A DNA stretch of 32,610 bases from Candidatus Zixiibacteriota bacterium (GTDB lineage Bacteria; Zixibacteria; MSB-5A5; GN15; JAAZOE01). Location of the stretch: NCBI GenBank assembly GCA_030668485.1, contig DAOUTW010000052.1, positions 1 through 32,610 of the forward strand, written 5' to 3'. Below, in pieces: positions 362 to 28,687 of the stretch. The translations under genes were made by a program, and so were the position numbers. Numbering within the stretch: the first letter of the stretch is position 1; every line of letters starts with the position of its first letter. The notes beneath the pieces are model-generated. The model saw only the letters and a program-made list of their open reading frames with translations. It did not search any database and was not told the DNA's origin.

Positions 362-367
362 ATGACA

Positions 368-3300
368 ATGAAGTATTCTTGCAGGATTCTTTGTTCATGT
401 TTATTAGTTTTAGTTTTCTGGTTATCGTCGGCTTCGTATGCCGCAGACAAACCTGAAATACCGCGGCATCGGCAAATTTATATGCCGGCTCGCAATGCGC
501 CGGTATACAGCTTTGCGGGCGCCGAAAGGGGAATGAATATAACCCCCGTAAAAAATCCCGGTAAAATTTCACTCCGTACCCAAGCGTCCCGCGGCTCCGC
601 CGATACTGTCGGTTACACAACCTATGACCAGCAGAGCAATTGCACCATGGGGTGGCAGATTGAGCATCGAAACACCGGAGTCGTTCACATGGATTGGATG
701 TTCCAGGACAATGGCATCCTTGGTAGTGGCCGCAATATCCATTATCAGGCTTTTACTGAGAGGGATTGCAGTCAGGCCTTCGCAGATAGCGGCATCATTG
801 TTGAAACCTCTTATTCCGGATATTGTAATTTGGACGTTGCTGAGGACGCCTGGGGTATCCCTACGGCGCATACTAACATTGACGGAAATTATTATGCGAT
901 GGCCTATTGGGATTTGTATATTGCACCCCCGCCTCCTTTTGGAGCATTCGCGCCGGATGCGCCGTATGATAGATTCGGATGGTATTTGAACAATGGTACC
1001 GGACCCGGCAATGAAAACATTTGGCCCAAAATCGCATACCAATGGAACGCCCCGGGCGATCCGGTTCTTCATTTGGTCACTGCTGAATCCGGCGGGTTAT
1101 CCGAAGACCCGCAGACTATTTCGTATTATCGACGGGTCGGTCCCTATGGCGCCGGTCTTGGTATTTGGTCAAGCCAGCGACTGATTGATACCGTCAAGAA
1201 TATAAACGTGACAGTTGTTTGCTCAAGAGTCACCGGCAAGGTGGCGATTGTCTGGAACGCCCCGGTCGATTACAAACGTGATACGCCTGACGAGTTTCTC
1301 AGCCAATTGGAAAATGATGTCTGGTATGCGGTCGCCAATGACTTTGGGGCCACATGGGCATCGGCGTCTCCCGGCCCTTCGATTGGCCATCAGGTTGACA
1401 TAGGTGCGTATGCGGGCGCCAATATCACTCAATATACGCCTGAAAGCGAATGGAAGGCATACTGCGATATGGCGGCAGCAATTACATCCACGGATGAACT
1501 TCATATATTATGGGGTTGCCGTCAATGGATGGATGGCGGTGCGACGGTTGCCCGCCGTAATTCGGCTATTTTCCATTGGGCTGATCTTACGCCTTTGGTC
1601 ACCAGAACAGTGGTTAGAGCCACCTACGATGACGGCGGTGATGGTTACGCCCATTCCTGGGGCAGCGACGTAGCCAAAATGTCTATTTCGGAATGCGATG
1701 GCAAGATGTACTGCCTTTACACTCAGTTTGGGCGATCTGATAATCCGAGCGGCGATGCGGACTATAATACTCGTATCCTGAATGGCTATTTGTACATGTC
1801 GGCATATGATCCTGCCTTGGATTTCTGGGACAGGGGTCAGCGGGTCACAAATACGCCTGAAACTCCATACGGCTGTACTCCGGGCGATATGAGCGGCCCC
1901 GGTGACTGCAACAGCGAATACTGGGCAACGATGGCTCGCTCCGGCCGTTACGACAGTTGCTGGGCAGATCCTGAGGATTGGGTTCTGGATATCCTTTATA
2001 TAAACGACTATGCTCCCGGCGCCTGCGTACATTCCGCATCCGGCGTCTGGACTGTCAATCATGTTATCTGGGCAAGATATCCATGCCGTGAGGCGACTCC
2101 CACACCGGATTACACCGATAATGCCGGCGATGGCTACGGCATTTGCTATGACCATCCGGAACTGGTGGTTCCTCCCGATCATGATACCTCATGGTCTCTG
2201 GAGATGGAAAACTACGGTACTGCCCTTTGTAGCATCAACGTCATTACTGTCACACAGAATGATCCCAATGTATTGATCACGGTTGTTCCCGGCGCACCAC
2301 CCGTAATTACTATACCTCCCTTCGGCGGCATGGTATCGACTACTATTAACATTTCAGCAGGCCTCGGCGCAACCGATCCATCGACGGTAGTAGATACAAT
2401 CACCATAACACATAATGCCCTGTTCGGTCCTCGGATAATTCCGGTTTGTGTTACAGTATCGTCCACTTATGTTCCTCTCGATTCAGCCATCCTGGCAACT
2501 ACCTGTCAAAGTAATCGGATTTTGAACGATGGCGGGCTTAGAGAAAGTATGGGTTTTCTTGACGAAACCGGTTGCGCTGAAAAATATCTTTACGACGGTT
2601 CTCCGATTGTATGTCGTGAAGTTGAAGGTCAGAAGCGGTGCTACCTTTCAGTATTCAGCCATACATACCGCGATGAAAGAGCGCTGCGTCAGGTGACTCC
2701 GGTCACCGTCAATACCGACAGCGCCGATTATATCAAAGCCTCGGCGGAATTTATTACCGGCGATACAGCCATAAGGTTGGCCGCGGAATACTATGTGCCT
2801 ACGGCTCCTGTCGATTGCGGGTATATAATTCAGAAATTATTATACTGGAATATAACCGGATCCGTTTTGCCTGGCGTGGCGGTTGGCGAAATCGTTGACT
2901 GGGATGTTCCGTCGTATGAAAGTGAATTTGATAACGAATCAGGCTTCGACGCGGATCGTCGGTTGATATACCAGTACGCCTGCGGTATGGACCCGTGCGC
3001 AACAACAGAAGCGGTCAATCGGTATGCAGGATTGGCGGCCTATCAGCACCAGCCGTTCAAGAATTATTTTACGCTTGAAAACGATGTCTGGGTACACAGC
3101 AGCGGTCCTTATGGTGAAGAAGCGCCCTTCCCGGATGAGGAAACTTATGCATTGATGACGGGTTTTGACGGATTCAATCCGGCCGTGATTCCCGCCTGTG
3201 AAGACCTGACGACTTTGGTTACATTCGGTGTTTACGACATGGAACCGGAGGATACAATTTGCGTGATCAAGATTTTGACAACATCGAGATATGATATCAA

Positions 3301-3634
3301 CGGGTCATATATGAAGGATAACGTGGATTTGGCAAACACTTTTATCGATGATCATCCGGAAATAAAATGCTTTTCATCATGCGATTGCAGACCGGGTGAT
3401 GCCAATGCTGATAGCTCCGTCATTGTTGCTGATGCCGTATACCTGATCAGTTGGATCTTCAAGGGCGGTCCACCGCCGGTGCCTTACCCAATTTGCAGTG
3501 GTGATGCCAACTGCGATTGTACGGGTAATGTCGGTGACGCCGTTTATCTTATCAATTATGTCTTTTTGGGCGGCCCGCCGCCATGTACCTGTGATGAGTG
3601 GCTGGCTAACTGTGGGCCGCCATTGAGGAAATAA
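368..3634 (+). CDS. Large secreted protein with C-terminal dockerin-like repeats
   Basis: This is an exported protein of 1088 residues with no recognised enzymatic fold. A signal peptide (basic MKYSCR, hydrophobic stretch, cleavage near ASYA-ADK) directs it out of the cytoplasm. The start at 368 is preferred over the in-frame ATG at 362 because AGGAGGG at 354-360 sits 7 bases before 368 but only 1 base before 362. The middle is rich in Cys, Asp, Gly and aromatic residues. A region near residues 615-700 resembles an Ig-like/Calx-type beta sandwich. The last 65 residues hold two type I dockerin-like calcium-binding repeats, GDANADSSVIVADAVYLI and GDANCDCTGNVGDAVYLI, each followed by a GGPPP tail. 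Such repeats are frequent at the ends of secreted proteins in Zixibacteria-like genomes, where they need not mean cellulosomes. The gene is monocistronic, with its own promoter and terminator. The function of the main body is unknown. Confidence 0.9.
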   Translation: MKYSCRILCSCLLVLVFWLSSASYAADKPEIPRHRQIYMPARNAPVYSFAGAERGMNITPVKNPGKISLRTQASRGSADTVGYTTYDQQSNCTMGWQIEHRNTGVVHMDWMFQDNGILGSGRNIHYQAFTERDCSQAFADSGIIVETSYSGYCNLDVAEDAWGIPTAHTNIDGNYYAMAYWDLYIAPPPPFGAFAPDAPYDRFGWYLNNGTGPGNENIWPKIAYQWNAPGDPVLHLVTAESGGLSEDPQTISYYRRVGPYGAGLGIWSSQRLIDTVKNINVTVVCSRVTGKVAIVWNAPVDYKRDTPDEFLSQLENDVWYAVANDFGATWASASPGPSIGHQVDIGAYAGANITQYTPESEWKAYCDMAAAITSTDELHILWGCRQWMDGGATVARRNSAIFHWADLTPLVTRTVVRATYDDGGDGYAHSWGSDVAKMSISECDGKMYCLYTQFGRSDNPSGDADYNTRILNGYLYMSAYDPALDFWDRGQRVTNTPETPYGCTPGDMSGPGDCNSEYWATMARSGRYDSCWADPEDWVLDILYINDYAPGACVHSASGVWTVNHVIWARYPCREATPTPDYTDNAGDGYGICYDHPELVVPPDHDTSWSLEMENYGTALCSINVITVTQNDPNVLITVVPGAPPVITIPPFGGMVSTTINISAGLGATDPSTVVDTITITHNALFGPRIIPVCVTVSSTYVPLDSAILATTCQSNRILNDGGLRESMGFLDETGCAEKYLYDGSPIVCREVEGQKRCYLSVFSHTYRDERALRQVTPVTVNTDSADYIKASAEFITGDTAIRLAAEYYVPTAPVDCGYIIQKLLYWNITGSVLPGVAVGEIVDWDVPSYESEFDNESGFDADRRLIYQYACGMDPCATTEAVNRYAGLAAYQHQPFKNYFTLENDVWVHSSGPYGEEAPFPDEETYALMTGFDGFNPAVIPACEDLTTLVTFGVYDMEPEDTICVIKILTTSRYDINGSYMKDNVDLANTFIDDHPEIKCFSSCDCRPGDANADSSVIVADAVYLISWIFKGGPPPVPYPICSGDANCDCTGNVGDAVYLINYVFLGGPPPCTCDEWLANCGPPLRK

Positions 3635-11148: not shown

Positions 11149-13587
11149 TCACCAATGGCAGAGATCAACCGGCATTACCTCTTTGGCTGTCTTACCTGCA
11201 TCGATCGCAAGATCATTCATTCCCAACTTAGCGTAAGTGAGGCCAAGCTCTGCATATGCATGAAACTCAGCGCTCCCTTGATCGATTATATTGTTCAAGA
11301 AAATCCTGGAAGAATCAAAATAAATAAGAGCTGAATCACGTTCTCCCATAAGATCGAATAGTTGTGCTATATTCATATATCGGACCTGGGTAGACCTTTC
11401 CTGGGTCATCTCGCGAAGTCTTTCAATTGCCTCTAAAGGATCAATCCTATCAATAATGAAGCGCCATAATCCAAGTGATGTCGAGGAAGCCAACTCGTAG
11501 GTCGATATATTTGTCCATCCGGCATCCTCGGTAAGCTTATTAAAGGGAGTGTCCTTGGTGTCGATACTGCCGTGCTGCAGCAGATTTATCATCACCATGA
11601 AGAAGGCAGCGTCGACGTTACTCGGATCCAGGGCAAGGGCACGGCGTAAGTACTGATCAGCCGATTCGTAATCACGCAACATCGAATTGGCTGTTGCCAG
11701 GTAGAAATATCTCTGCCCTGACAAGGGGTCAATCCTGGCCGCCTCCTCGAATTTTGACAGTGCATCCTGCCATCTTCCCTGACGCATCCTGACAATTCCG
11801 ACAGCCTCGGAGAGTTCGGCATTGCTGGTTATTTCCGACTTGGCCATCGCGAACGACGCCAGGGCTTTATCATAGTCATTCTCAACCATGTTATAGTAAA
11901 TCCCCCGCGCAATGTGCGCTATCGGCAGACTGGGATTAAGGGCGAGGGCTTTTTCAGCAGCTTTCAGAGCTTCCTCTCGATGGTAGGTTGCCTCCACCGT
12001 CGTATAGGTAAAAGTGAACTCAGAATGGTTGATAGATTTTTGCGCCCAGGCTAAAGCAAAATTTGAATCGAGAGCAATAGCTGAGTCTTGCATTCTGATA
12101 GACTTACGAAAATCAGACATGTACCAGTTCTGACCTGCAATCTCAATACCCCGCAGGTAGAAGTTGTAAGCCGCCATATTGGAGGTCGGGGCGTAGTCCG
12201 GAGCATCCTGACCCGGTTTCAGCAAGGTCAGCCCTAGAGCAACTACGATTTTGTTGGCTATCTGCGACTGAACCTCAAATATCTGTACTAACTCTTGATC
12301 ATAATTATCCGCCCATATTAGATAATTGTCACTGGCCTTAGTCAATTTGGGTGTAACTCGGAAACGATCGATTTCCCCGGATTTATCCCATCGAATTGTC
12401 GCCTCAAGAATATAGTCGGCGCCAGTTTCCTGCCCAATTTCCTCAAAACTTTTTTTTGTGTTCTTGTATTTATCTGCACTTCTTGGGGAAATGACCCGCA
12501 GTCCTTCCACAGTCATCAGACGTGAACCAATCTCTTCCCTGATACCGACGGAGAAGTAATCGTCCTCCATCGAACCAAGATTCTCAAACGGCAGCACAAC
12601 CAGCACAGGTGCAGCGGCCTGAGTTGGCTCTTGGGTATCCGTCCGAAGGATTGAGATGAAGTAGCCCCCGACAACGATTATGACTGCGGCGGCTGCCCAC
12701 AGTGCGGCCCGGCTCTTCCTGGGGCCTTTTGATTCAATATTCAAGCGCTTCAAGTCGGCCAGCATTTCGTCGGCGTGCTGGTAGCGCATTGACGGATCCT
12801 TGGACAAGGCTTTATTGATGATTTGCTGCAATTCGCCGGTAACGCCCGATTTGAATCGGGCTATCGGCTCGGGATTCGAATCAGTAATAGCCTTGACAAC
12901 AGCGGCATCGTTATCTCCGGTAAAAGGACGTCGGCCGGTAATCATCTCATAAAATATCACTCCAACTGAGAAGAGATCGGCCCGTTTGTCAACTTTTTTA
13001 CATACAATCTGTTCCGGCGCCATATATCCAACGGTACCCAGGGTAGAGCCGGTTTTGGTCAATTTATCTTCACCCGACACTGTTGCTAACCCAAAATCCA
13101 AAAGGCGCGCCCTGTTTGAATTATCGATGATGATATTGCTCGGCTTAATATCCCGATGAACGATACCAGCATTATGGGCTTCATTTAGCCCTTCGCAGAT
13201 CTGCATAGTTAAATCGATAGACTCGGATAATGAGAGTTTACCTTTCTTAATGACATCACGAAGCGTTTCGCCTTCGATATGTGCCATAGCAATAAAAGGG
13301 CGATTCTGGAACTCCCCGACTTCATACACCGGAACTATATTCGGATGGTCAAGTTTTGCGGCAGCCTGAGCTTCACGGGTGAAACGCGACCGCATATCAT
13401 CATCCGCAGCCAAATGAGCCGGCATGAACTTCAGCGCCACCCGACGTTTGAGCTTTGTATCCTCCGCCAGATAAACCTCACCCATCCCACCGGCTCCGAT
13501 TTTCTCGATTATCCGGTAATGTTGCACCATTTTTCCTTGTGTCAGAACTACTTGGGTGCGGGTGTTATCGTCATTATGATTTGTCAT
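11149..13587 (-). CDS. Membrane Ser/Thr protein kinase with TolB/FlgO-like and TPR domains (C-terminus truncated)
   Basis: An 812-residue Hanks-type kinase. The kinase domain (about 24-285) has the glycine loop GAGGMG (31-36), Lys 53, Glu 72, HRDIKPSN (144-151) and DFG (164-166), so it should be active. A transmembrane helix (about 295-314) leads to an extracytoplasmic region. That region begins with a TolB/FlgO N-terminal-like fold (about 327-455, VLVVLPFENLGSMEDDYFSVGI) and continues into TPRs. The substrate is unknown. The start codon overlaps the stop of the ribbon-helix-helix gene in an ATGA (13584-13587), so the two are coupled. The reading frame stops at TGA 11149-11151 although homologous sequence continues in frame for about 70 more residues, so one to two C-terminal TPR units are lost. 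Kinase and transmembrane parts are intact, so partial function is possible. Confidence 0.9.
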   Translation of the reverse strand: MTNHNDDNTRTQVVLTQGKMVQHYRIIEKIGAGGMGEVYLAEDTKLKRRVALKFMPAHLAADDDMRSRFTREAQAAAKLDHPNIVPVYEVGEFQNRPFIAMAHIEGETLRDVIKKGKLSLSESIDLTMQICEGLNEAHNAGIVHRDIKPSNIIIDNSNRARLLDFGLATVSGEDKLTKTGSTLGTVGYMAPEQIVCKKVDKRADLFSVGVIFYEMITGRRPFTGDNDAAVVKAITDSNPEPIARFKSGVTGELQQIINKALSKDPSMRYQHADEMLADLKRLNIESKGPRKSRAALWAAAAVIIVVGGYFISILRTDTQEPTQAAAPVLVVLPFENLGSMEDDYFSVGIREEIGSRLMTVEGLRVISPRSADKYKNTKKSFEEIGQETGADYILEATIRWDKSGEIDRFRVTPKLTKASDNYLIWADNYDQELVQIFEVQSQIANKIVVALGLTLLKPGQDAPDYAPTSNMAAYNFYLRGIEIAGQNWYMSDFRKSIRMQDSAIALDSNFALAWAQKSINHSEFTFTYTTVEATYHREEALKAAEKALALNPSLPIAHIARGIYYNMVENDYDKALASFAMAKSEITSNAELSEAVGIVRMRQGRWQDALSKFEEAARIDPLSGQRYFYLATANSMLRDYESADQYLRRALALDPSNVDAAFFMVMINLLQHGSIDTKDTPFNKLTEDAGWTNISTYELASSTSLGLWRFIIDRIDPLEAIERLREMTQERSTQVRYMNIAQLFDLMGERDSALIYFDSSRIFLNNIIDQGSAEFHAYAELGLTYAKLGMNDLAIDAGKTAKEVMPVDLCHW

Positions 13588-14078: not shown

Positions 14079-15782
14079 TCAGGAGTTTTCATCTTCGGAG
14101 TGGTCGCGGATAACCAATGCCCTTTTGGCAATCTGCTGATTGTTTACCTGATGCCTTTTCAGTAGCTGAATAGCAACCTGCACGGCGGCTTCCCGCTCGG
14201 CAGGTATGACCTCATCGGCACCCGCTGCGAGCAGGGGCTCGATATCGAGTAAGTAAAAAGTCCGTACGGTTATGAATAAACGCGGAACGAGCTCTCGAGC
14301 AACCCGCACTGCCCGCTCTGCCGCGCTTGGGTCGTTTATCAGGAGAACAAGTTCTCGCGCATTCTCAATCCCCAACCTGTTGAGCACTCCCTCGCTTGTA
14401 ACATCCCCGAATACCGCTTTCCCTGTTTCTTCAGATGCCTTTCTGACATTCTCAATATTTAGATCCACTATCACATATGGGATATCGTACTCATCGAGAA
14501 CCTGTGCTAACTCCCTTCCGGCAAAACCGTACCCGCTGACAATTACATGGTCACGCATTTTGCAGATGGTATCGGGTGCGTCCTCGGCGGAATCTACCTT
14601 GAGCAGGTTCTTAAAGCGTGTGAACTTGCCAAGGCCGGCTGCAAGCTGAGGACTATATGACATGGCGAAAGGGGTTAGGAACATCGAGAGAATCGCCGCA
14701 GCGATGATACTGTTCTCAAGAGATTTTTCGATCAGCCCGGTTCCCTGTATGGAGAACAATAGAATGAAAGAAAATTCTCCGATCTGCGACAATGCGATAG
14801 CCGCGAATAAACATGCTCTTATCGGCATGCGCAGTACTGATGCGGCAACGAAGACGATCAGAGATTTTCCGAATAGGATTGCCGCCAGAATAGCAGCGAT
14901 TGGGACCAGATTGTCAATAATCATCAATGGTGACAGCAACATTCCAATCGATACAAAAAACAGACTGGCAAAGACCTCCCTGAACGATATCATATCCGCC
15001 AATGCTTGATGTCTATATTCGCTTCCTGAAACCACCAGTCCGGCCAGGAACGCTCCGACCGCAAGAGAGGCGCCGGATTTGGTAACCAGCCATGCCGTTC
15101 CCAGGCAAATCAGAAATACCGAGAGAATGAACAATTGTCTTTGCCTGGTCCTGGCAACGAAGCTTAGAATTCGAGGCACTACAAGCATGGCCAGGAGTAG
15201 GACGGCGACAACTATTCCCACAGACTTCGCCAGCGTGACAAAGAACGCCCCGGTATTCAAGTCCGCTCCGATCAGTAGCGGGATGATCAACATAATCGGC
15301 ACGACGCTGAAGTCCTGGAATACAAGAATTCCCAATATCAGGCGACCGTGGGGCGCGTCAACTTCCCCTCTTTGCTGCAATTCTCGCAAGACAATGGCAG
15401 TACTGGATAAAGCCACAACCAGGCCGATTAATAAGGCCGAGCTACTCGGCAGATCAGTCATTCTGGCTATAACGTAGACAACCGCTGTGGTAAGTCCCAC
15501 TTGAAGAAGACCACCAACCAAAGCGAGTCTCCACAGGCGCTGGAGTTTCTTCAGCGCAAGCTCCACCCCTATCCCAAACAGAAGTAATGCGACCCCGATC
15601 TCGGCCAGCAGTTCGACCTGGTGGACATCATTGATCAACCCAAGACCCTGGGGGCCTACGAGTATCCCTGACAGGATGAATCCAGCTATGGGGGGTAATT
15701 TCAGCTTGTGGAATACGATTACAATAATAACCGCAAAACCGAGTATTACTACGAGATCCTGGAGATAAGCCAATTCATGCAT
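14079..15782 (-). CDS. CPA2-family cation/proton antiporter with TrkA-N domain
   Basis: A 567-residue membrane protein that should exchange K+ or Na+ for protons. The N-terminal 380 residues form about 12-13 transmembrane helices. They carry Kef/Nap signatures: PPIAGFILSGILVGPQGLGLI at the start, then ALLLFGIGVEL, ALSSTAIVLREL and ILVFQDFSVVP. A cytosolic TrkA-N/Rossmann domain (about 405-530) follows, with VIVSGYGFAGRELAQVLDEY as the nucleotide-binding loop. A TrkA-C domain is missing, so the length matches the shorter KefB-like proteins. It is the last gene of the NhaR-kinase-transporter operon, 60 bases after the receiver gene. This position and the NhaR-like regulator favour a Na+ or K+/pH homeostasis role. 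The exact ion cannot be told from the sequence. Confidence 0.92.
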   Translation of the reverse strand: MHELAYLQDLVVILGFAVIIVIVFHKLKLPPIAGFILSGILVGPQGLGLINDVHQVELLAEIGVALLLFGIGVELALKKLQRLWRLALVGGLLQVGLTTAVVYVIARMTDLPSSSALLIGLVVALSSTAIVLRELQQRGEVDAPHGRLILGILVFQDFSVVPIMLIIPLLIGADLNTGAFFVTLAKSVGIVVAVLLLAMLVVPRILSFVARTRQRQLFILSVFLICLGTAWLVTKSGASLAVGAFLAGLVVSGSEYRHQALADMISFREVFASLFFVSIGMLLSPLMIIDNLVPIAAILAAILFGKSLIVFVAASVLRMPIRACLFAAIALSQIGEFSFILLFSIQGTGLIEKSLENSIIAAAILSMFLTPFAMSYSPQLAAGLGKFTRFKNLLKVDSAEDAPDTICKMRDHVIVSGYGFAGRELAQVLDEYDIPYVIVDLNIENVRKASEETGKAVFGDVTSEGVLNRLGIENARELVLLINDPSAAERAVRVARELVPRLFITVRTFYLLDIEPLLAAGADEVIPAEREAAVQVAIQLLKRHQVNNQQIAKRALVIRDHSEDENS

Positions 15783-16350: not shown

Positions 16351-18384
16351 CTAAAACCCTATATATCGCCAATAGCCGAATATAGTCCATCCCCAAAGAA
16401 CTGCAAACGATAATATCAGTACTACGGCGCCATGCTTAAGGAAATCGGAGAGAGTCACCAACTGCTCGCCTGTCACCGGATCTTTAGCCATTGCATAGGC
16501 AATTGCATTAGAGGGTGTGCCGATTATAAGCATGTGAGCAAACGATGAAGCGAAGGCGGTCGCAAAACCAATCATCCAGGGGTGGGTACCGCTGATAGTT
16601 GCCATCGGCACGGTAATTGGACCGATCGCTGAAACTGTGGCTCCGTCGCTCATGAAATTAGTTGTGATCCCGGCGAACAAACTGGCAGCCATAGCTAACC
16701 CTGATCCATCGCTCATGAATTCCGGGAGAATGCTGAGAAAACCGTCGGCCATGAATAACGCTCCGCCGGTTTCAGCCAGGCCTTTACCCAAGGCGCTGGC
16801 ACTGGCATACAAGGCTACCACCTCCCAATGAATCGAGGTAATGTCTCGCCATTTGAGTATTCGCATTATGTTCAAAGCCACCAATCCGAGGATGACGGGA
16901 CCTCCCATCCCGAATATATCGCTGGCTCCGATCCAAAGAGCTATGACGACTACCAAAACAGCCGCCGTGAGATACTCGTTTCGATTCATGGGACCAATTT
17001 GGTCGGAAGCCTGACGTACTATGGCTGAGACATCGAGTGATTTAACCTTGAGTTTTGAGCGGAAACGCAAGTAGAAATATGCTGCGATAACCAGGGCCAT
17101 TATCGGTACAAAGGGCATTCCGTAGGTCATCCACTCACCGAAAGTCGGGGCAATGTTATAGTCCTGCAATATACCCATCATGATTGCGTTACGACCGCCG
17201 GCAGCAGGCGATCCTGGACCTCCAGAGTTTGCTGTATAACAGAGAGTCAAGGCGAACATGACTGCCAGCGCTCGATCTTTTTTAACGCCTGCCGCTCGGA
17301 TCGATGTGACGTAAACCATCATGAACAAAGGCATAATAAAGGCTACCAAAGCATGCTCGGATACCAGTGAGCAGGCCATAGCCAAAAGCGGCAGAAAAAT
17401 GAAAAGAAGTCGTGGTAAAGTCTTTGCAGGACCGAGGAGCAGCAGACCGATTCGCCTGTCCAGCCCGGTTTTGGAGATCGCCATCGCAAGAGCCAGGACC
17501 CCGAAGATGAAGATGACTGCATCCTTGGCGTAGGCCTTGGCAATGTCATCGGGACGAAGAATACCGGAGAAGTACATTAGCACCCCGACAAGCAAAGCCG
17601 TGATCCCAATAGGCACTGCCCCCGAGGCCCAGAACAAGGCTGCCACGATCAGCGTAGCCAACATTACGCGAGCTTTCGTTGACACCTCCTCAGGACTCTG
17701 AGACACTTTGATGCTGACACCGCTGGTATCCAGGACCGTACTGTAAATTTTGTTCTTGCGACTATAGTATTCGGCGATAGTCTCATCTTCGCTCATTTGC
17801 CGATATCCAGCAAATCCAACGTTTATGTCAGTCAACTCCCCGGTCTTGGGGGCTGAAAGAATGTTGAGCAGGCGATCCGGCGTTGGGGCCAACAACATGG
17901 CAGCGAAAATCAATGCCCCGAGAATTATTACTCCGGGACGGGAGTTATGCGTCCCCATTAACCACTTCTTCACCGATCCCTTCACTATATGAGGAATTTC
18001 ATGGCGGGCCATGACATGGGGACGGTCTTCACGGGCCGCCTCTATCGTCTCGAGCAACTTGTCCATTTCACAAGGCTTCTCAAGATAAGCATAGGCCTCC
18101 ATTCGTCCGATTTCCATAGCCGATGTCATCGAACCATGTCCGGTAAGCATAATCACCTGAACCGCCGGTCGGTACTTTCTCAGTTCTGCGAGGGTCTGTT
18201 CTCCACTCAGGCCCGGCATTTTCAGGTCCAGCAGAACAACGTCAATATCATAGTCGCTCCTGGCGAGCTTGATAGCACCCTCACCATTACCCGCCTCAAT
18301 GGTCTCATAACCACGCAGGTTTAATCGCTCGGCCAGATCCGAACGAAACTTATTTTCATCATCTACGAGCAATATTTTGGCCAT
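16351..18384 (-). CDS. Receiver domain fused to a DASS/SLC13-type membrane transporter
   Basis: A 677-residue fusion. Residues 1-122 are a complete receiver (Asp 8/Asp 9, phospho-acceptor Asp 53 in LLDLKMPG, Thr 81, Lys 103). A short linker leads to a first transmembrane helix (about 150-168) and then a polar loop of about 70 residues (170-238). From residue 239 to the end it is a divalent anion/Na+ symporter-like permease with about 10 further helices, recognisable from FWASGAVPIGITALLVG, TANSGGPGSPAAGGRNAI and GTPSNAIAYAMA. The usual SNT motifs of the dicarboxylate/sulfate carriers appear as SEH (342-344) and SDG, so the substrate is probably not a standard dicarboxylate. The start has GAGGA 8 bases upstream and lies 4 bases after the CBS gene. 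The frame is continuous, so this is not an assembly join. Phosphorylation would be a direct switch on transport. Confidence 0.93.
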   Translation of the reverse strand: MAKILLVDDENKFRSDLAERLNLRGYETIEAGNGEGAIKLARSDYDIDVVLLDLKMPGLSGEQTLAELRKYRPAVQVIMLTGHGSMTSAMEIGRMEAYAYLEKPCEMDKLLETIEAAREDRPHVMARHEIPHIVKGSVKKWLMGTHNSRPGVIILGALIFAAMLLAPTPDRLLNILSAPKTGELTDINVGFAGYRQMSEDETIAEYYSRKNKIYSTVLDTSGVSIKVSQSPEEVSTKARVMLATLIVAALFWASGAVPIGITALLVGVLMYFSGILRPDDIAKAYAKDAVIFIFGVLALAMAISKTGLDRRIGLLLLGPAKTLPRLLFIFLPLLAMACSLVSEHALVAFIMPLFMMVYVTSIRAAGVKKDRALAVMFALTLCYTANSGGPGSPAAGGRNAIMMGILQDYNIAPTFGEWMTYGMPFVPIMALVIAAYFYLRFRSKLKVKSLDVSAIVRQASDQIGPMNRNEYLTAAVLVVVIALWIGASDIFGMGGPVILGLVALNIMRILKWRDITSIHWEVVALYASASALGKGLAETGGALFMADGFLSILPEFMSDGSGLAMAASLFAGITTNFMSDGATVSAIGPITVPMATISGTHPWMIGFATAFASSFAHMLIIGTPSNAIAYAMAKDPVTGEQLVTLSDFLKHGAVVLILSFAVLWGWTIFGYWRYIGF

Positions 18385-18388
18385 ACAA

Positions 18389-18955
18389 TCAGTCCTCGAT
18401 ATTTGCGTTGGTAGCCGTCTGTCGCATTTGTTCCATCACTTCATCACAGAGGTCGACCAGGCGAACCAGGCCAATCGGTCGGTCCTTATCCGTGACCAGA
18501 ACCGATAAGGTCTGCCACATTCTCATTTTGTGAATTACCTCACAGATTGGCGCGCTCACATCGATATGCTCCTTGAATGGATGCATAATAATACGGACCG
18601 GTAAAGTAGCCGCTCCGATGCACATTTCTAATAATCCCAACTGAAGAGATCGAAAGTGCCTAAGGGTCGTTTCCATGGCCGCATCGCCAACGCCGGCTCT
18701 ATTGAGAGTATTCTGGTCACAAGCAACGTGGCTTTTTGGTTCCAGGGCTCGTAATAGAGCCATTTGTCCGATTTTACCGACTATATTGCCATTCTTATCG
18801 GCTACCAATACGGCCTGAAATGGTTGTCTATCCGGATCCGATTTGCGCCGGGATTCAGATAATCGATTGACAGCATCCAGAACGGTAGCCGAGGAATCCA
18901 CAATCGGGTACTCATCAAGAAGGACCATGATGTCCCCCGCCTTTTTTGCACTCAT
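18389..18955 (-). CDS. Two-CBS-domain regulatory protein
   Basis: A 188-residue soluble protein with two CBS motifs. The first is about residues 4-80 (DIMVLLDEYPIVDSSATVLDAV ... AVLVADKNGNIVGKIG); the second is about 110-175 (PFKEHIDVSAPICEVIHKM ... LSVLVTDKDRPIGLVRLVDL). CBS pairs usually bind adenine nucleotides and regulate attached or neighbouring transporters and enzymes. The ATG at 18955 is chosen. An in-frame TTG at 18979 would extend the protein by eight residues, but the GAGGAG (12 bases before the ATG) lies inside that extension. It sits 24 bases after the histidine kinase and 4 bases before the receiver-transporter fusion. A role as energy or ionic-strength sensor for the transporter is inference. 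Confidence 0.88.
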   Translation of the reverse strand: MSAKKAGDIMVLLDEYPIVDSSATVLDAVNRLSESRRKSDPDRQPFQAVLVADKNGNIVGKIGQMALLRALEPKSHVACDQNTLNRAGVGDAAMETTLRHFRSLQLGLLEMCIGAATLPVRIIMHPFKEHIDVSAPICEVIHKMRMWQTLSVLVTDKDRPIGLVRLVDLCDEVMEQMRQTATNANIED

Positions 18956-18979
18956 GTTATCAACTACTCCTCTTGGCAA

Positions 18980-20682: not shown

Positions 20683-20883
20683 CTACCGCGTATCTCCGTA
20701 TTCTTGCTGTGTGCTTTCTTCTCTCTTGAAGACGCCACATCTGTCAGCCAAATATGGTAATTGAATATCTAAGGGCAAGTGGTTTTCATTGGCGCCTGAT
20801 CCTCCGGCGAAAATTCCGCTGGTCTGGTTCGTGTGACGTTCTTCATATTTTCTCATCTCTTCGACCGCCAAACGCCCGGTCAT
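20683..20883 (-). CDS. Small hypothetical protein between the NhaR-like gene and the histidine kinase
   Basis: A 66-residue, strongly charged open frame without recognised homology (begins MTGRLAVEEMRKYEERHTNQ). It is supported only by position. Its ATG overlaps the stop of the LysR gene (ATGA, 20880-20883), its TAG forms part of the ribosome-binding site of the histidine kinase, and it fills the gap between them exactly. It has no membrane segment and no cysteine motif (one Cys). It could be a real coupled small protein or a leader that keeps ribosomes moving into the kinase gene. Chance cannot be excluded. Confidence 0.4.
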   Translation of the reverse strand: MTGRLAVEEMRKYEERHTNQTSGIFAGGSGANENHLPLDIQLPYLADRCGVFKREESTQQEYGDTR

Positions 20884-21782
20884 TTCTGGAATATACCATT
20901 CTTCGCGTTTTCCACAATTGCCAGCACCGCCGGATGCTTTATCCGCCTATCCATAGAAACGGCAAAATATTTCTCAACAACGCCATCCAGGCGACCCACT
21001 TCACGAACATGATATTGCTTCGCGACCTCACTTCCAACAACGCTCGGAGCCGCGAAAAATCCCAGCCCTGCCTGGCCCATTGCCGTCAGCAGCGCGCTAT
21101 CATCGCATTCCGCCACAACTCGGGGACGAATTTTGCGAGATTCAAACCATTGTTCCAGCGACCGACGAAGCACTGTTCTGTCGCCCGGTAGAAGACAGGG
21201 GGCTCCGTCCAGTGACTCTGGAAAACCCCGCTTAAAACGTGTTGCGTGCTCCGAATTGGCAAATACTGATATCTCACTCTCGCCTAGTAGATGACTGAAT
21301 CCGCGAACCCTAAGGTCGGCACTGATCGGCGCGTCGGTAAGCACCATATCCAGATCATGTAATATTAACTGGGAAACCAGATTATCCGGATGATCTTCTC
21401 GGCAGACCAGATGGATCCCCTGGGGATCGTCCATAATCGGTTCCAAGAGCTTGACCGCAAGGAGTTTTGGAATGACGTCGGCAATGCCGATTTGGAAACG
21501 TATCGGACGACTATGCGGTCGATCTTCAAGCGCATCCTTTAACTCTCGTCCAAGCGCGAATATCTCCTCGGCATATCGATATACGATTTGACCGACATCG
21601 TTCAGTACCAGTTGACGCCCCGATCGATCAAAGAGTTTGTATCCCAATACATGCTCAAGTTGTTGTATCTGAGTACTCACCGTTGAGGGAGATAGGCAAA
21701 GCTCCTTAGCAGCGGGTGCCAATCCCCCCTTGCGTACAACCGTCCAGAAATAGAGTAAGTGATGGTAGTTCAGCAAATTCAT
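20880..21782 (-). CDS. nhaR: NhaR-like LysR-family transcriptional regulator
   Basis: A 300-residue LysR regulator. The N-terminal winged helix-turn-helix (about 1-60: NYHHLLYFWTVVRKGG, LSPSTVSTQIQQLE) closely follows the pattern of NhaR, the activator of Na+/H+ antiporter genes (INYNHLYYFWHVYKEG in E. coli, from memory). LysR substrate-binding folds occupy about 90-295. The ATG at 21782 gives the conserved NhaR N-terminus. An upstream in-frame start 24 codons earlier would add a segment that overlaps the promoter and has no counterpart in the family. It is the first gene of the operon that ends in an antiporter, so it probably activates this operon in response to Na+ or pH, and may be autoregulated. 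Confidence 0.88.
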   Translation of the reverse strand: MNLLNYHHLLYFWTVVRKGGLAPAAKELCLSPSTVSTQIQQLEHVLGYKLFDRSGRQLVLNDVGQIVYRYAEEIFALGRELKDALEDRPHSRPIRFQIGIADVIPKLLAVKLLEPIMDDPQGIHLVCREDHPDNLVSQLILHDLDMVLTDAPISADLRVRGFSHLLGESEISVFANSEHATRFKRGFPESLDGAPCLLPGDRTVLRRSLEQWFESRKIRPRVVAECDDSALLTAMGQAGLGFFAAPSVVGSEVAKQYHVREVGRLDGVVEKYFAVSMDRRIKHPAVLAIVENAKNGIFQK

Positions 21783-21789
21783 GCTTGTA

Positions 21790-21818
21790 AAGATAGTTCG
21801 AGTCACTAGAAATGTCAA
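21790..21818 (-). promoter_or_regulatory. Promoter of the nhaR-led operon
   Basis: On the minus strand a perfect -35 TTGACA-type box (TTGACA, 21818-21813) is followed by a 17-base spacer and TATCTT (21795-21790) as the -10. The expected start of transcription, about 7 bases further, falls within a base or two of the NhaR start codon at 21782. The message would then be leaderless or nearly so, which fits the absence of a Shine-Dalgarno sequence before that ATG. Confidence 0.6.
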
Positions 21819-21822
21819 CACC

Positions 21823-21845
21823 ATATTATGATATATACAAAATAT
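21823..21845. promoter_or_regulatory. Imperfect palindrome upstream of the nhaR promoter (possible operator)
   Basis: A 23-base AT-rich dyad, ATATTATGATATATACAAAATAT, is symmetrical at all but two position pairs. It lies 4 bases beyond the -35 box of the nhaR promoter, the usual place for a LysR activator or autoregulator to bind. The AT richness makes chance symmetry more likely, so this is only a candidate NhaR-like site. Confidence 0.4.
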
Positions 21846-22006
21846 CAATGTCACCGTATTTTATATACAAGGCGGAATATTGGGATAGCTAAAATTCCTC
21901 CGAGGATAAGTATTATGGATAAGGACGTTGTCATAATAACGGGCATCCTTATCGGGTTAAATGATTCGGATGAAGGTATTATATTGTCCGAAGGAGAGAG
22001 TCGGCA

Positions 22007-27010: not shown

Positions 27011-28687
27011 ATGAAAATACTAACAATACATGCGATGATACTGATGCTTTCACTCTTCGCCTGCGCCCCGGCATATTCCTGGGAAGAATATGAGCACCAG
27101 CAGGTCAGTGACAGCGCCTTTTTCACGGTGATGCAAATATGTTGTCGCCCTTCCGGAGATTCTGCCTTCGTACCGATAGGCAGCGGCGGAGAGTCAATAA
27201 TTCCCCTTCATCTTCGATCCGATATGACTTTCGGACAGGTAGTCGCCGGATTTGCCGGTGATGACCTGGCGCGCAATCGTTTCCACGACTATGGTCGATC
27301 CATTCAGGAACAGCTTGAAATGTTGACCGCCGAACAGATCGAAGCCGCATGGAATGCGATCAAAGACTCTTCGTCAAATCAGGCAAAGGCAATTTATGTT
27401 GAATCGGCAATGTCTCCTCCAAAATTCTTTACCAAAAATACAATAAGCGCCTATCTCCTTTATCATATGCTGGCCATGCGTATGGCTAAGGAGGCAGGCG
27501 CTTCCGTGGCTGGCAATCGGGATCATCTATTGAAGGCGATGATACTGGAGGCGATCGCCCAGGGCCATCTTGCCGATGCTTTCTCTGCCGGTCATATCCT
27601 CACACCGGTGTCTGACTTTCTGGCCCCTTTACATTGCTGCAATACCATAGAGTCGCATAATTATCATCGCAGCAAGGGGGTCTATGTCGTTAACTCGCGC
27701 GGCGATGCCTGGCAGACCTTCGGTGATAAGCTGATGCACTGGTATGCGCCGACTTATCGCCCGGTCTTCGAAGCCTGTTATTTTTCATTGATGGAAATTA
27801 TGACGGTTTACTATAACGCCGGTGATTCTGATCTACCTGACGGTCTTGAACAGTGGAATAAATCAACCGTCCCGGGTGTACGGGTCAAACACGAGGTTTC
27901 GATCTGGACCTCCGGTCATGACGGGGATTATTTTTATACCCACCGGTATTTGCCAACCCTGATGCTCTTGCCAATGCCGACAGCGGCCACCTGGAGTATC
28001 CGAACATATGAGAATGATGAGCATAATATCAGGAAACGCCGGCACTTTCCACAGCTTTACGAGAACGGTTTCCATGATCCGGATGATTGGGATATCGACA
28101 AAAACTTTCTATATTCGCGCAACGATATCCCTGCATGGTTAATCCCGCCCGGCTTTCTTACCGATAACCCGGTCAGTCCCGATTCGCTGATAAAATTTCA
28201 TCCCGATTGGGCCTCGGTTCGCTGGCACCAAATCAGGTATGCTCCCCCTAGCTATAAAGGATTATTATTGGGTTTCGGCAGTGTCTTATTGTTTGAGAAC
28301 AATGATGGCCATGGACGCACCGGAGGAATGGTCAGGCTTGGTTATGGCCTTTGGGATGATTTGATGTTGTTGAAAAACATTTCCCTCAATACCACGTTGC
28401 TGCCTTCCGCATATGATGAAGGACGGCTGTTGCTGGCGACGTCATTGGGGCTTGGAATTCCGTCCTTGATGCCGAAATATTATAAGGCTCTGCACCTTGA
28501 AGGCGGTGCCGCCTTTGGTCTCAGATCCCAGTATAACGATCACGGCGTTATGCTGACGGCCGGTATAGACAGCAATGTTCTGCCTTTCGGCTTCACCAAT
28601 GCCGGATTAACATTCAGGCTGAAATATCAATGGTTCCTGCTGGGCAGGATAATACACGGCCCCGCCCTCGAAGTCATTCTGCAATAA
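27011..28687 (+). CDS. Secreted protein with zinc-phospholipase/P1-nuclease-like N-terminus and beta-rich C-terminus
   Basis: A 558-residue exported protein of unproven function. The signal peptide is predicted to be cleaved at AYS-W, leaving Trp 24 as the first residue, followed by EEYEHQQVSDSAF. A free N-terminal Trp plus internal His/Asp clusters is the hallmark of zinc phospholipase C and S1/P1 nucleases. Here the helical region of about residues 85-200 contains FHDYG, YHMLAM and GHLADAFSAGH (His 185, Asp 188, His 194), close to the HxxxDxxxxxH zinc motif but with one residue fewer in the first spacing. The last 160 residues have alternating hydrophobic strands (LLLGFGSVLLF ... GGMVRLGYGLW ... 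HLEGGAAFGLRS ... GLTFRLKYQWFLL), as in outer-membrane beta structures. It follows the M19 peptidase gene by 3 bases. The enzymatic assignment is inference. Confidence 0.85.
   Translation: MKILTIHAMILMLSLFACAPAYSWEEYEHQQVSDSAFFTVMQICCRPSGDSAFVPIGSGGESIIPLHLRSDMTFGQVVAGFAGDDLARNRFHDYGRSIQEQLEMLTAEQIEAAWNAIKDSSSNQAKAIYVESAMSPPKFFTKNTISAYLLYHMLAMRMAKEAGASVAGNRDHLLKAMILEAIAQGHLADAFSAGHILTPVSDFLAPLHCCNTIESHNYHRSKGVYVVNSRGDAWQTFGDKLMHWYAPTYRPVFEACYFSLMEIMTVYYNAGDSDLPDGLEQWNKSTVPGVRVKHEVSIWTSGHDGDYFYTHRYLPTLMLLPMPTAATWSIRTYENDEHNIRKRRHFPQLYENGFHDPDDWDIDKNFLYSRNDIPAWLIPPGFLTDNPVSPDSLIKFHPDWASVRWHQIRYAPPSYKGLLLGFGSVLLFENNDGHGRTGGMVRLGYGLWDDLMLLKNISLNTTLLPSAYDEGRLLLATSLGLGIPSLMPKYYKALHLEGGAAFGLRSQYNDHGVMLTAGIDSNVLPFGFTNAGLTFRLKYQWFLLGRIIHGPALEVILQ

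Follow-up and report, generated by a model that had tools for sequence, protein, structure and literature searches.

The window, a stretch of 32,610 nucleotides from a Candidatus Zixiibacteriota bacterium, encodes on its reverse strand a 677-residue protein in which a response-regulator receiver domain is fused to a complete DASS-type permease (Table 1). On balance, we favor reading this protein as a putative sulfate importer that serves dissimilatory sulfate reduction and would be controlled post-translationally by a dedicated two-component system. The initial annotation had proposed a transporter opened or closed directly by aspartyl phosphorylation from the neighboring kinase, a reading that is partly supported by the comparisons presented herein. 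Dissimilatory sulfate reduction begins with the uptake of sulfate, and the control of the affinity and rate of this step is poorly understood.

Table 1. Features of the receiver-DASS locus and of related loci (window positions unless a locus is named).
Feature	Position	Strand	Basis
Receiver-DASS fusion, 677 aa	16351..18384	(-)	Frame, Pfam, alignment, AlphaFold model
Receiver domain, residues 1-117 (D8, D9, D53, T81, K103)	18034..18384	(-)	Pfam, invariance, fold
Linker, residues 118-150	17935..18033	(-)	Alignment
First membrane helix (150-167), periplasmic insert (168-230) and DASS core (231-677)	16354..17937	(-)	Pfam, alignment, model
Sensor histidine kinase, 564 aa	18980..20674	(-)	Pfam, 52-sequence alignment, AlphaFold model
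CBS-domain protein, two weak CBS matches	18389..18979	(-)	Pfam
Receiver-only protein, 162 aa	15843..16331	(-)	Pfam, alignment
Receiver-CBS fusions adjoining unfused second-class DASS permeases	L110:6976-7923; L151:11730-12704; L144:8477-9424		
Kinase and receiver-only orthologues without receiver-DASS	L152:5687-8896; L153:4353-6578		

The gene is a single frame with no internal stop, as first annotated, and the residues of the receiver's phosphorylation site lie at the positions originally assigned to them. Pfam matches to the fusion protein comprise Response_reg (residues 4-114, 2.9e-23) and Na_sulph_symp (residues 230-674, 1.2e-35), both well over the cut-offs, as well as CitMHS (residues 250-610), while the NCBIfam dass model (TIGR00785) gives 173.8 bits, under its curated cut-off of 198.6. 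Structure prediction, which had been suggested as a check, agrees with the proposed domain order: the AlphaFold model (mean pLDDT 89, pTM 0.82) contains a receiver fold, placed ahead of the first helix, followed by a complete DASS fold. In a fold search with this model, the top PDB matches were human NaS1, NaCT, and VcINDY, the sulfate carrier NaS1 being the best, and TM-scores against solved DASS chains reached 0.82. The fusion protein has the full DASS fold in common with these three carriers at 20-24% identity, but differs from them in that both SNT motifs are replaced, a receiver has been added, and the first two helices are separated by a periplasmic insert.

Relatives were sought in one scan of 84,980 species genomes, which returned 194; the best 80 were examined at full length and, together with the window protein, make up an 81-protein alignment. 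All 80 align over the whole length of receiver and permease, and by depositor name their carriers include Zixibacteria, Desulfobacteraceae, other Deltaproteobacteria, Acidobacteria, Planctomycetes, Gemmatimonadota, Calditrichaeota, Myxococcales, and Fibrobacteria, among others; no plasmid-borne relative with the architecture is among the matches listed. A frameshift, chimera, or assembly artefact can be ruled out because the fusion is conserved at full length in these 80 further loci, from dozens of independent genomes. A degenerate receiver can likewise be dismissed, given that the phosphorylation site is kept in the aligned copies: every one of the 81 proteins has D8, D53 (whose loss would have told against the initial annotation), T81, and K103, and 80 of them have D9. 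The carrier output had also been described as rare, which holds for the kind of output and fails for the architecture, with 194 relatives in one scan. In a tree of the permeases, all fused proteins fall into one group (support 88/86) whose sister group is receiver-less, so that a single event joining receiver and permease would be the simplest reading.

Within the host's order, close homologues with 64-90% identity are full-length in other genomes; one further genome (G037) has the gene in split form and another (G001) has the 3′ part alone. The latter remnant (L249:7251-8027, on contig C47) retains residues 419-677 at 91% identity and is followed by intact receiver-only and CPA2 genes, with kinase and CBS genes not found upstream; it represents either a truncation or an assembly join.

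From 5′ to 3′, the operon consists of the histidine kinase, the CBS-domain protein, the receiver-DASS fusion, and the receiver-only protein, with intergenic gaps of 0, 4, and 19 bases, respectively. The kinase is present where it had been annotated, while the CBS protein, the receiver-only gene, and the replacement of both SNT motifs had been overlooked. This arrangement recurs: where the flank is long enough, a histidine kinase lies directly upstream of the fusion in 59 of 61 loci, 40 of 61 have an upstream CBS gene, and a receiver-only gene follows downstream in 70 of 77. The kinase combines a membrane-anchored dCache-type external sensor with HisKA and HATPase_c domains, and its phospho-acceptor, H347, is situated within the motif HEINN in an alignment of 52 sequences, throughout which the external-domain residues G128, Y133, G135, Y145, W150, G169, R171, H175, F176, and R192 are invariant. 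The Pfam dCache_1 match is below cut-off in the window kinase and above it in the kinase of a relative (L152); a fold search with the AlphaFold model of the kinase matched kinase cores only and gave no indication of the ligand.

The receiver-only protein has an intact phosphorylation site (D11, D12, D55, T83, and K105 in the window protein), which is kept in 68 loci, and a tail that is mostly about 44 residues long. No DNA-binding domain was found by Pfam in the window protein or in the copies scanned, and a DNA-binding output is thus absent from both receivers of the conserved operon. Among the receiver domains of the host genome, counted as 62 matches and recovered as 63 distinct domains, it is the closest to the fused receiver, both overall (43% identity) and in helix alpha-1 and the kinase-specificity positions, and hence the simplest reading is that one kinase may serve both.

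An NhaR-like LysR regulator (window 20880-21854) and a KefC-like CPA2 antiporter (14079-15782) flank the operon; they were dropped as candidate parts of the system, since among the 80 loci they occur only in close kin (both at L035, LysR alone at L047). Downstream of the operon, the window encodes a PknB-like Ser/Thr kinase with C-terminal TPR repeats (11149-13587). Two open frames of the window (362-3634, 1090 aa; 27011-28687, 558 aa) have no Pfam match at 1e-5. At L149:4541-6595 and L187:4898-6940, the sensor kinase of the cluster carries an N-terminal receiver within a single frame, and this frame precedes the receiver-DASS gene.

Related clusters show that the same parts are joined in different ways. 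A second class of permease, with SDH and ADG motifs, is unfused and is accompanied by a kinase, a single or double receiver, and a receiver-CBS fusion. Candidate fusions of this class with receivers (open frames of 771-928 aa) were rejected, as at L144 TAA parts the genes and the L145 frame has no receiver match. In three genomes of the Desulfobacteraceae family, the first class of permease also lacks the receiver, with separate receivers nearby; the receiver is therefore not essential to the carrier. The appearance of receiver, CBS, and permease in varied fusions within one kind of system points to a single functional unit, a classic line of evidence for joint action.

The main alternative is a transceptor that signals in reverse, wherein the permease's receiver would dock on the kinase and substrate occupancy or flux would alter the kinase or drain phosphate, with the receiver-only protein as the target and the permease as co-sensor. 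It gains from the second receiver of the same kind next door, the closest in the host genome, and from two dsr-positive relatives (L152 and L153) that lack the fusion yet retain the kinase and receiver-only genes; moreover, sensor-type fusions of transporter and kinase are known in CbrA (PMC7096432) and Ks-Amt5 (PMC5764959). Nevertheless, a fused receiver is a phosphoryl acceptor rather than a source, the kinase is already equipped with a conserved external sensor, and the receiver-only protein has no recognizable output, and reverse signalling is thus considered unlikely. At L152, the kinase and receiver-only genes adjoin a TauE/SafE-family permease, a neighborhood that would fit some role connected with the transport of sulfur oxyanions.

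As for the substrate, of which the initial annotation had named none, genome context points to sulfate, and the evidence is indirect though strong. In a sample of 60 genomes of the host's order, the fusion occurs in 18 (split and truncated copies included), every one of which has dsrA, and in none of the 34 genomes without dsrA, while eight dsr-positive relatives lack it; the association is significant by Fisher's test (1.7e-9 over the 60 genomes, with kinship ignored and carriers in three families). Among 50 carrier genomes reached through other loci, 47 have substantial dsrA/B or aprA matches: dsrA is above cut-off in 40, and the other ten comprise five genomes with a full aprA, two in which aprA is broken into long pieces, one with no more than an aprA fragment where a contig ends, and two that lack convincing matches. 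The host genome itself encodes sat, qmoC, QmoA/B-like proteins, aprA, dsrA, dsrB, dsrC, and dsrM on contig C57. DsrD was set aside as a marker of reductive Dsr, as it had no matches in any genome in a search run without a positive control. Given this co-occurrence, the host's pathway, and the substrate assigned to related clusters in passages of a recent study (PMC11887813), we infer sulfate as the substrate, and a sulfate importer is our best guess for the fusion permease.

The permease itself departs from characterized DASS proteins. In an alignment to VcINDY variants, S342-E343-H344 and S579-D580-G581 align to the two SNT motifs, and SEH and SDG replace SNT in all 81 proteins, in all of which GGRNA (residues 396-400) also takes the place of the GTPPN-type stretch; a canonical DASS paralogue in the host genome keeps SNT at both positions. 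Two SNT motifs form the sodium/substrate signature of DASS/SLC13 proteins, and with both replaced the fusion is filed as a divergent DASS-fold carrier rather than a canonical sodium symporter, and Na+/sulfate symport should not be taken for granted. The acidic residues that stand where asparagines would be expected, together with the invariant R398, suggest that a different coupling ion or anion chemistry may be used. DASS members also include dicarboxylate carriers. Both the altered motifs and this family breadth would suit a carrier that moves another anion (sulfite, thiosulfate, or a dicarboxylate) or exports, or a DASS part that acts as a non-transporting sensor, an alternative to which we give little probability: the linkage to dsr/apr genomes is tight across phyla, the substituted residues do not drift but are invariant, and in the 81-protein alignment no part of the fusion protein is better conserved than the permease core, unlike in a dead carrier.

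DASS proteins are dimeric elevator carriers, and receivers commonly pair upon phosphorylation. In the favored scheme, the upstream kinase would sense an external ligand, probably sulfate, via its dCache domain and would phosphorylate D53 of the cytoplasmic receiver at the permease N-terminus. The resulting change in the receiver, probably an altered pairing of receivers across the permease dimer, would pass through the short linker to the first scaffold helix and alter the rate of elevator-type transport; phosphotransfer and gating are what we infer here, and either activation or inhibition may result. The linker of 33 residues between receiver and first helix is identical in length in 74 of the 81 proteins, with E129, W141, G144, R149, and P150 each conserved in at least 99% of them, and a near-constant, short linker with conserved residues is more easily reconciled with mechanical coupling than with loose tethering. 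The receiver-only protein may be a second target of the same kinase, serving as a phosphate sink or connecting the system to other partners. The CBS protein may add control through a cytoplasmic ligand.

Clusters like the window operon, with a DASS permease, Cache-type kinase, response regulators, and CBS protein, have been described as sulfate transporter clusters of Desulfobacteraceae in passages of two papers (PMC11887813; PMC5840216, 2018). The window operon holds all four of these parts together, as the related clusters do in passages of the former paper (PMC11887813, 2025), where they are assigned to sulfate uptake and drawn as transcriptional circuits; the window system differs from these clusters in lying outside Desulfobacterota and in a conserved operon without a DNA-binding regulator, hence without the WalR-type promoter regulator of that model. 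An ordinary transcriptional circuit, in which the kinase drives transporter expression via DNA-binding regulators while the fused receiver serves only to tether or to buffer, or reflects a quirk of expression, would accord with the response regulators placed at promoters in those passages (PMC11887813) and with the NtrC-like regulators found near some clusters. We hold it to be quite improbable, as neither receiver of the conserved operon has a DNA-binding domain, and the phosphorylation site conserved in 81 proteins, along with a linker of near-constant length, points to a role for the fused receiver itself.

The permease that we take, by gene spacing, to correspond to HRM2_38230 lacks the receiver, and the reported low-sulfate induction therefore backs the substrate loosely. 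For HRM2_38300, passages of PMC5840216 give two contradictory statements on sulfate dependence. One relative's genome encodes a receiver-DASS protein of 691 aa, which is the upper length of group Cii as given in part of that paper (PMC5840216). Both papers treat proteins of the fusion's group or related clusters, and the main-text passages searched in PMC11887813 and PMC5840216 make no mention of a receiver as part of the transporter.

Literature searches, which covered few subscription papers, likewise turned up no account of a receiver-transporter fusion. In LacS-type sugar carriers, a fused IIA domain is phosphorylated to tune transport, by way of PTS histidine phosphorylation; in the window fusion, the modification would instead be aspartyl and would come via a sensor kinase. 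The SLC5-STAC kinases CbrA and CrbS and the fusion Ks-Amt5 (PMC7096432, PMC5764959) also physically join a transporter to two-component signalling, but on the kinase, as input, whereas the window fusion involves another transporter family carried on a receiver, the presumed output, with the kinase encoded by a separate gene.

More tentatively, and with somewhat less than even confidence, these proteins may form a widespread response-regulator class with a secondary transporter as output, in which environmental sulfate would set its own import rate for sulfate respiration, with no transcription step, through aspartyl phosphorylation acting directly on the carrier; the ion/substrate site of this carrier would be unlike that of characterized DASS proteins. 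If the favored reading is true, a sensor kinase encoded next door could adjust sulfate uptake directly and not via gene expression. Should phosphorylation gate the carrier, two-component signalling would gain a membrane-transport output, and a single kinase, a single protein, and a point mutant at D53 would suffice to test how sulfate respiration is controlled.
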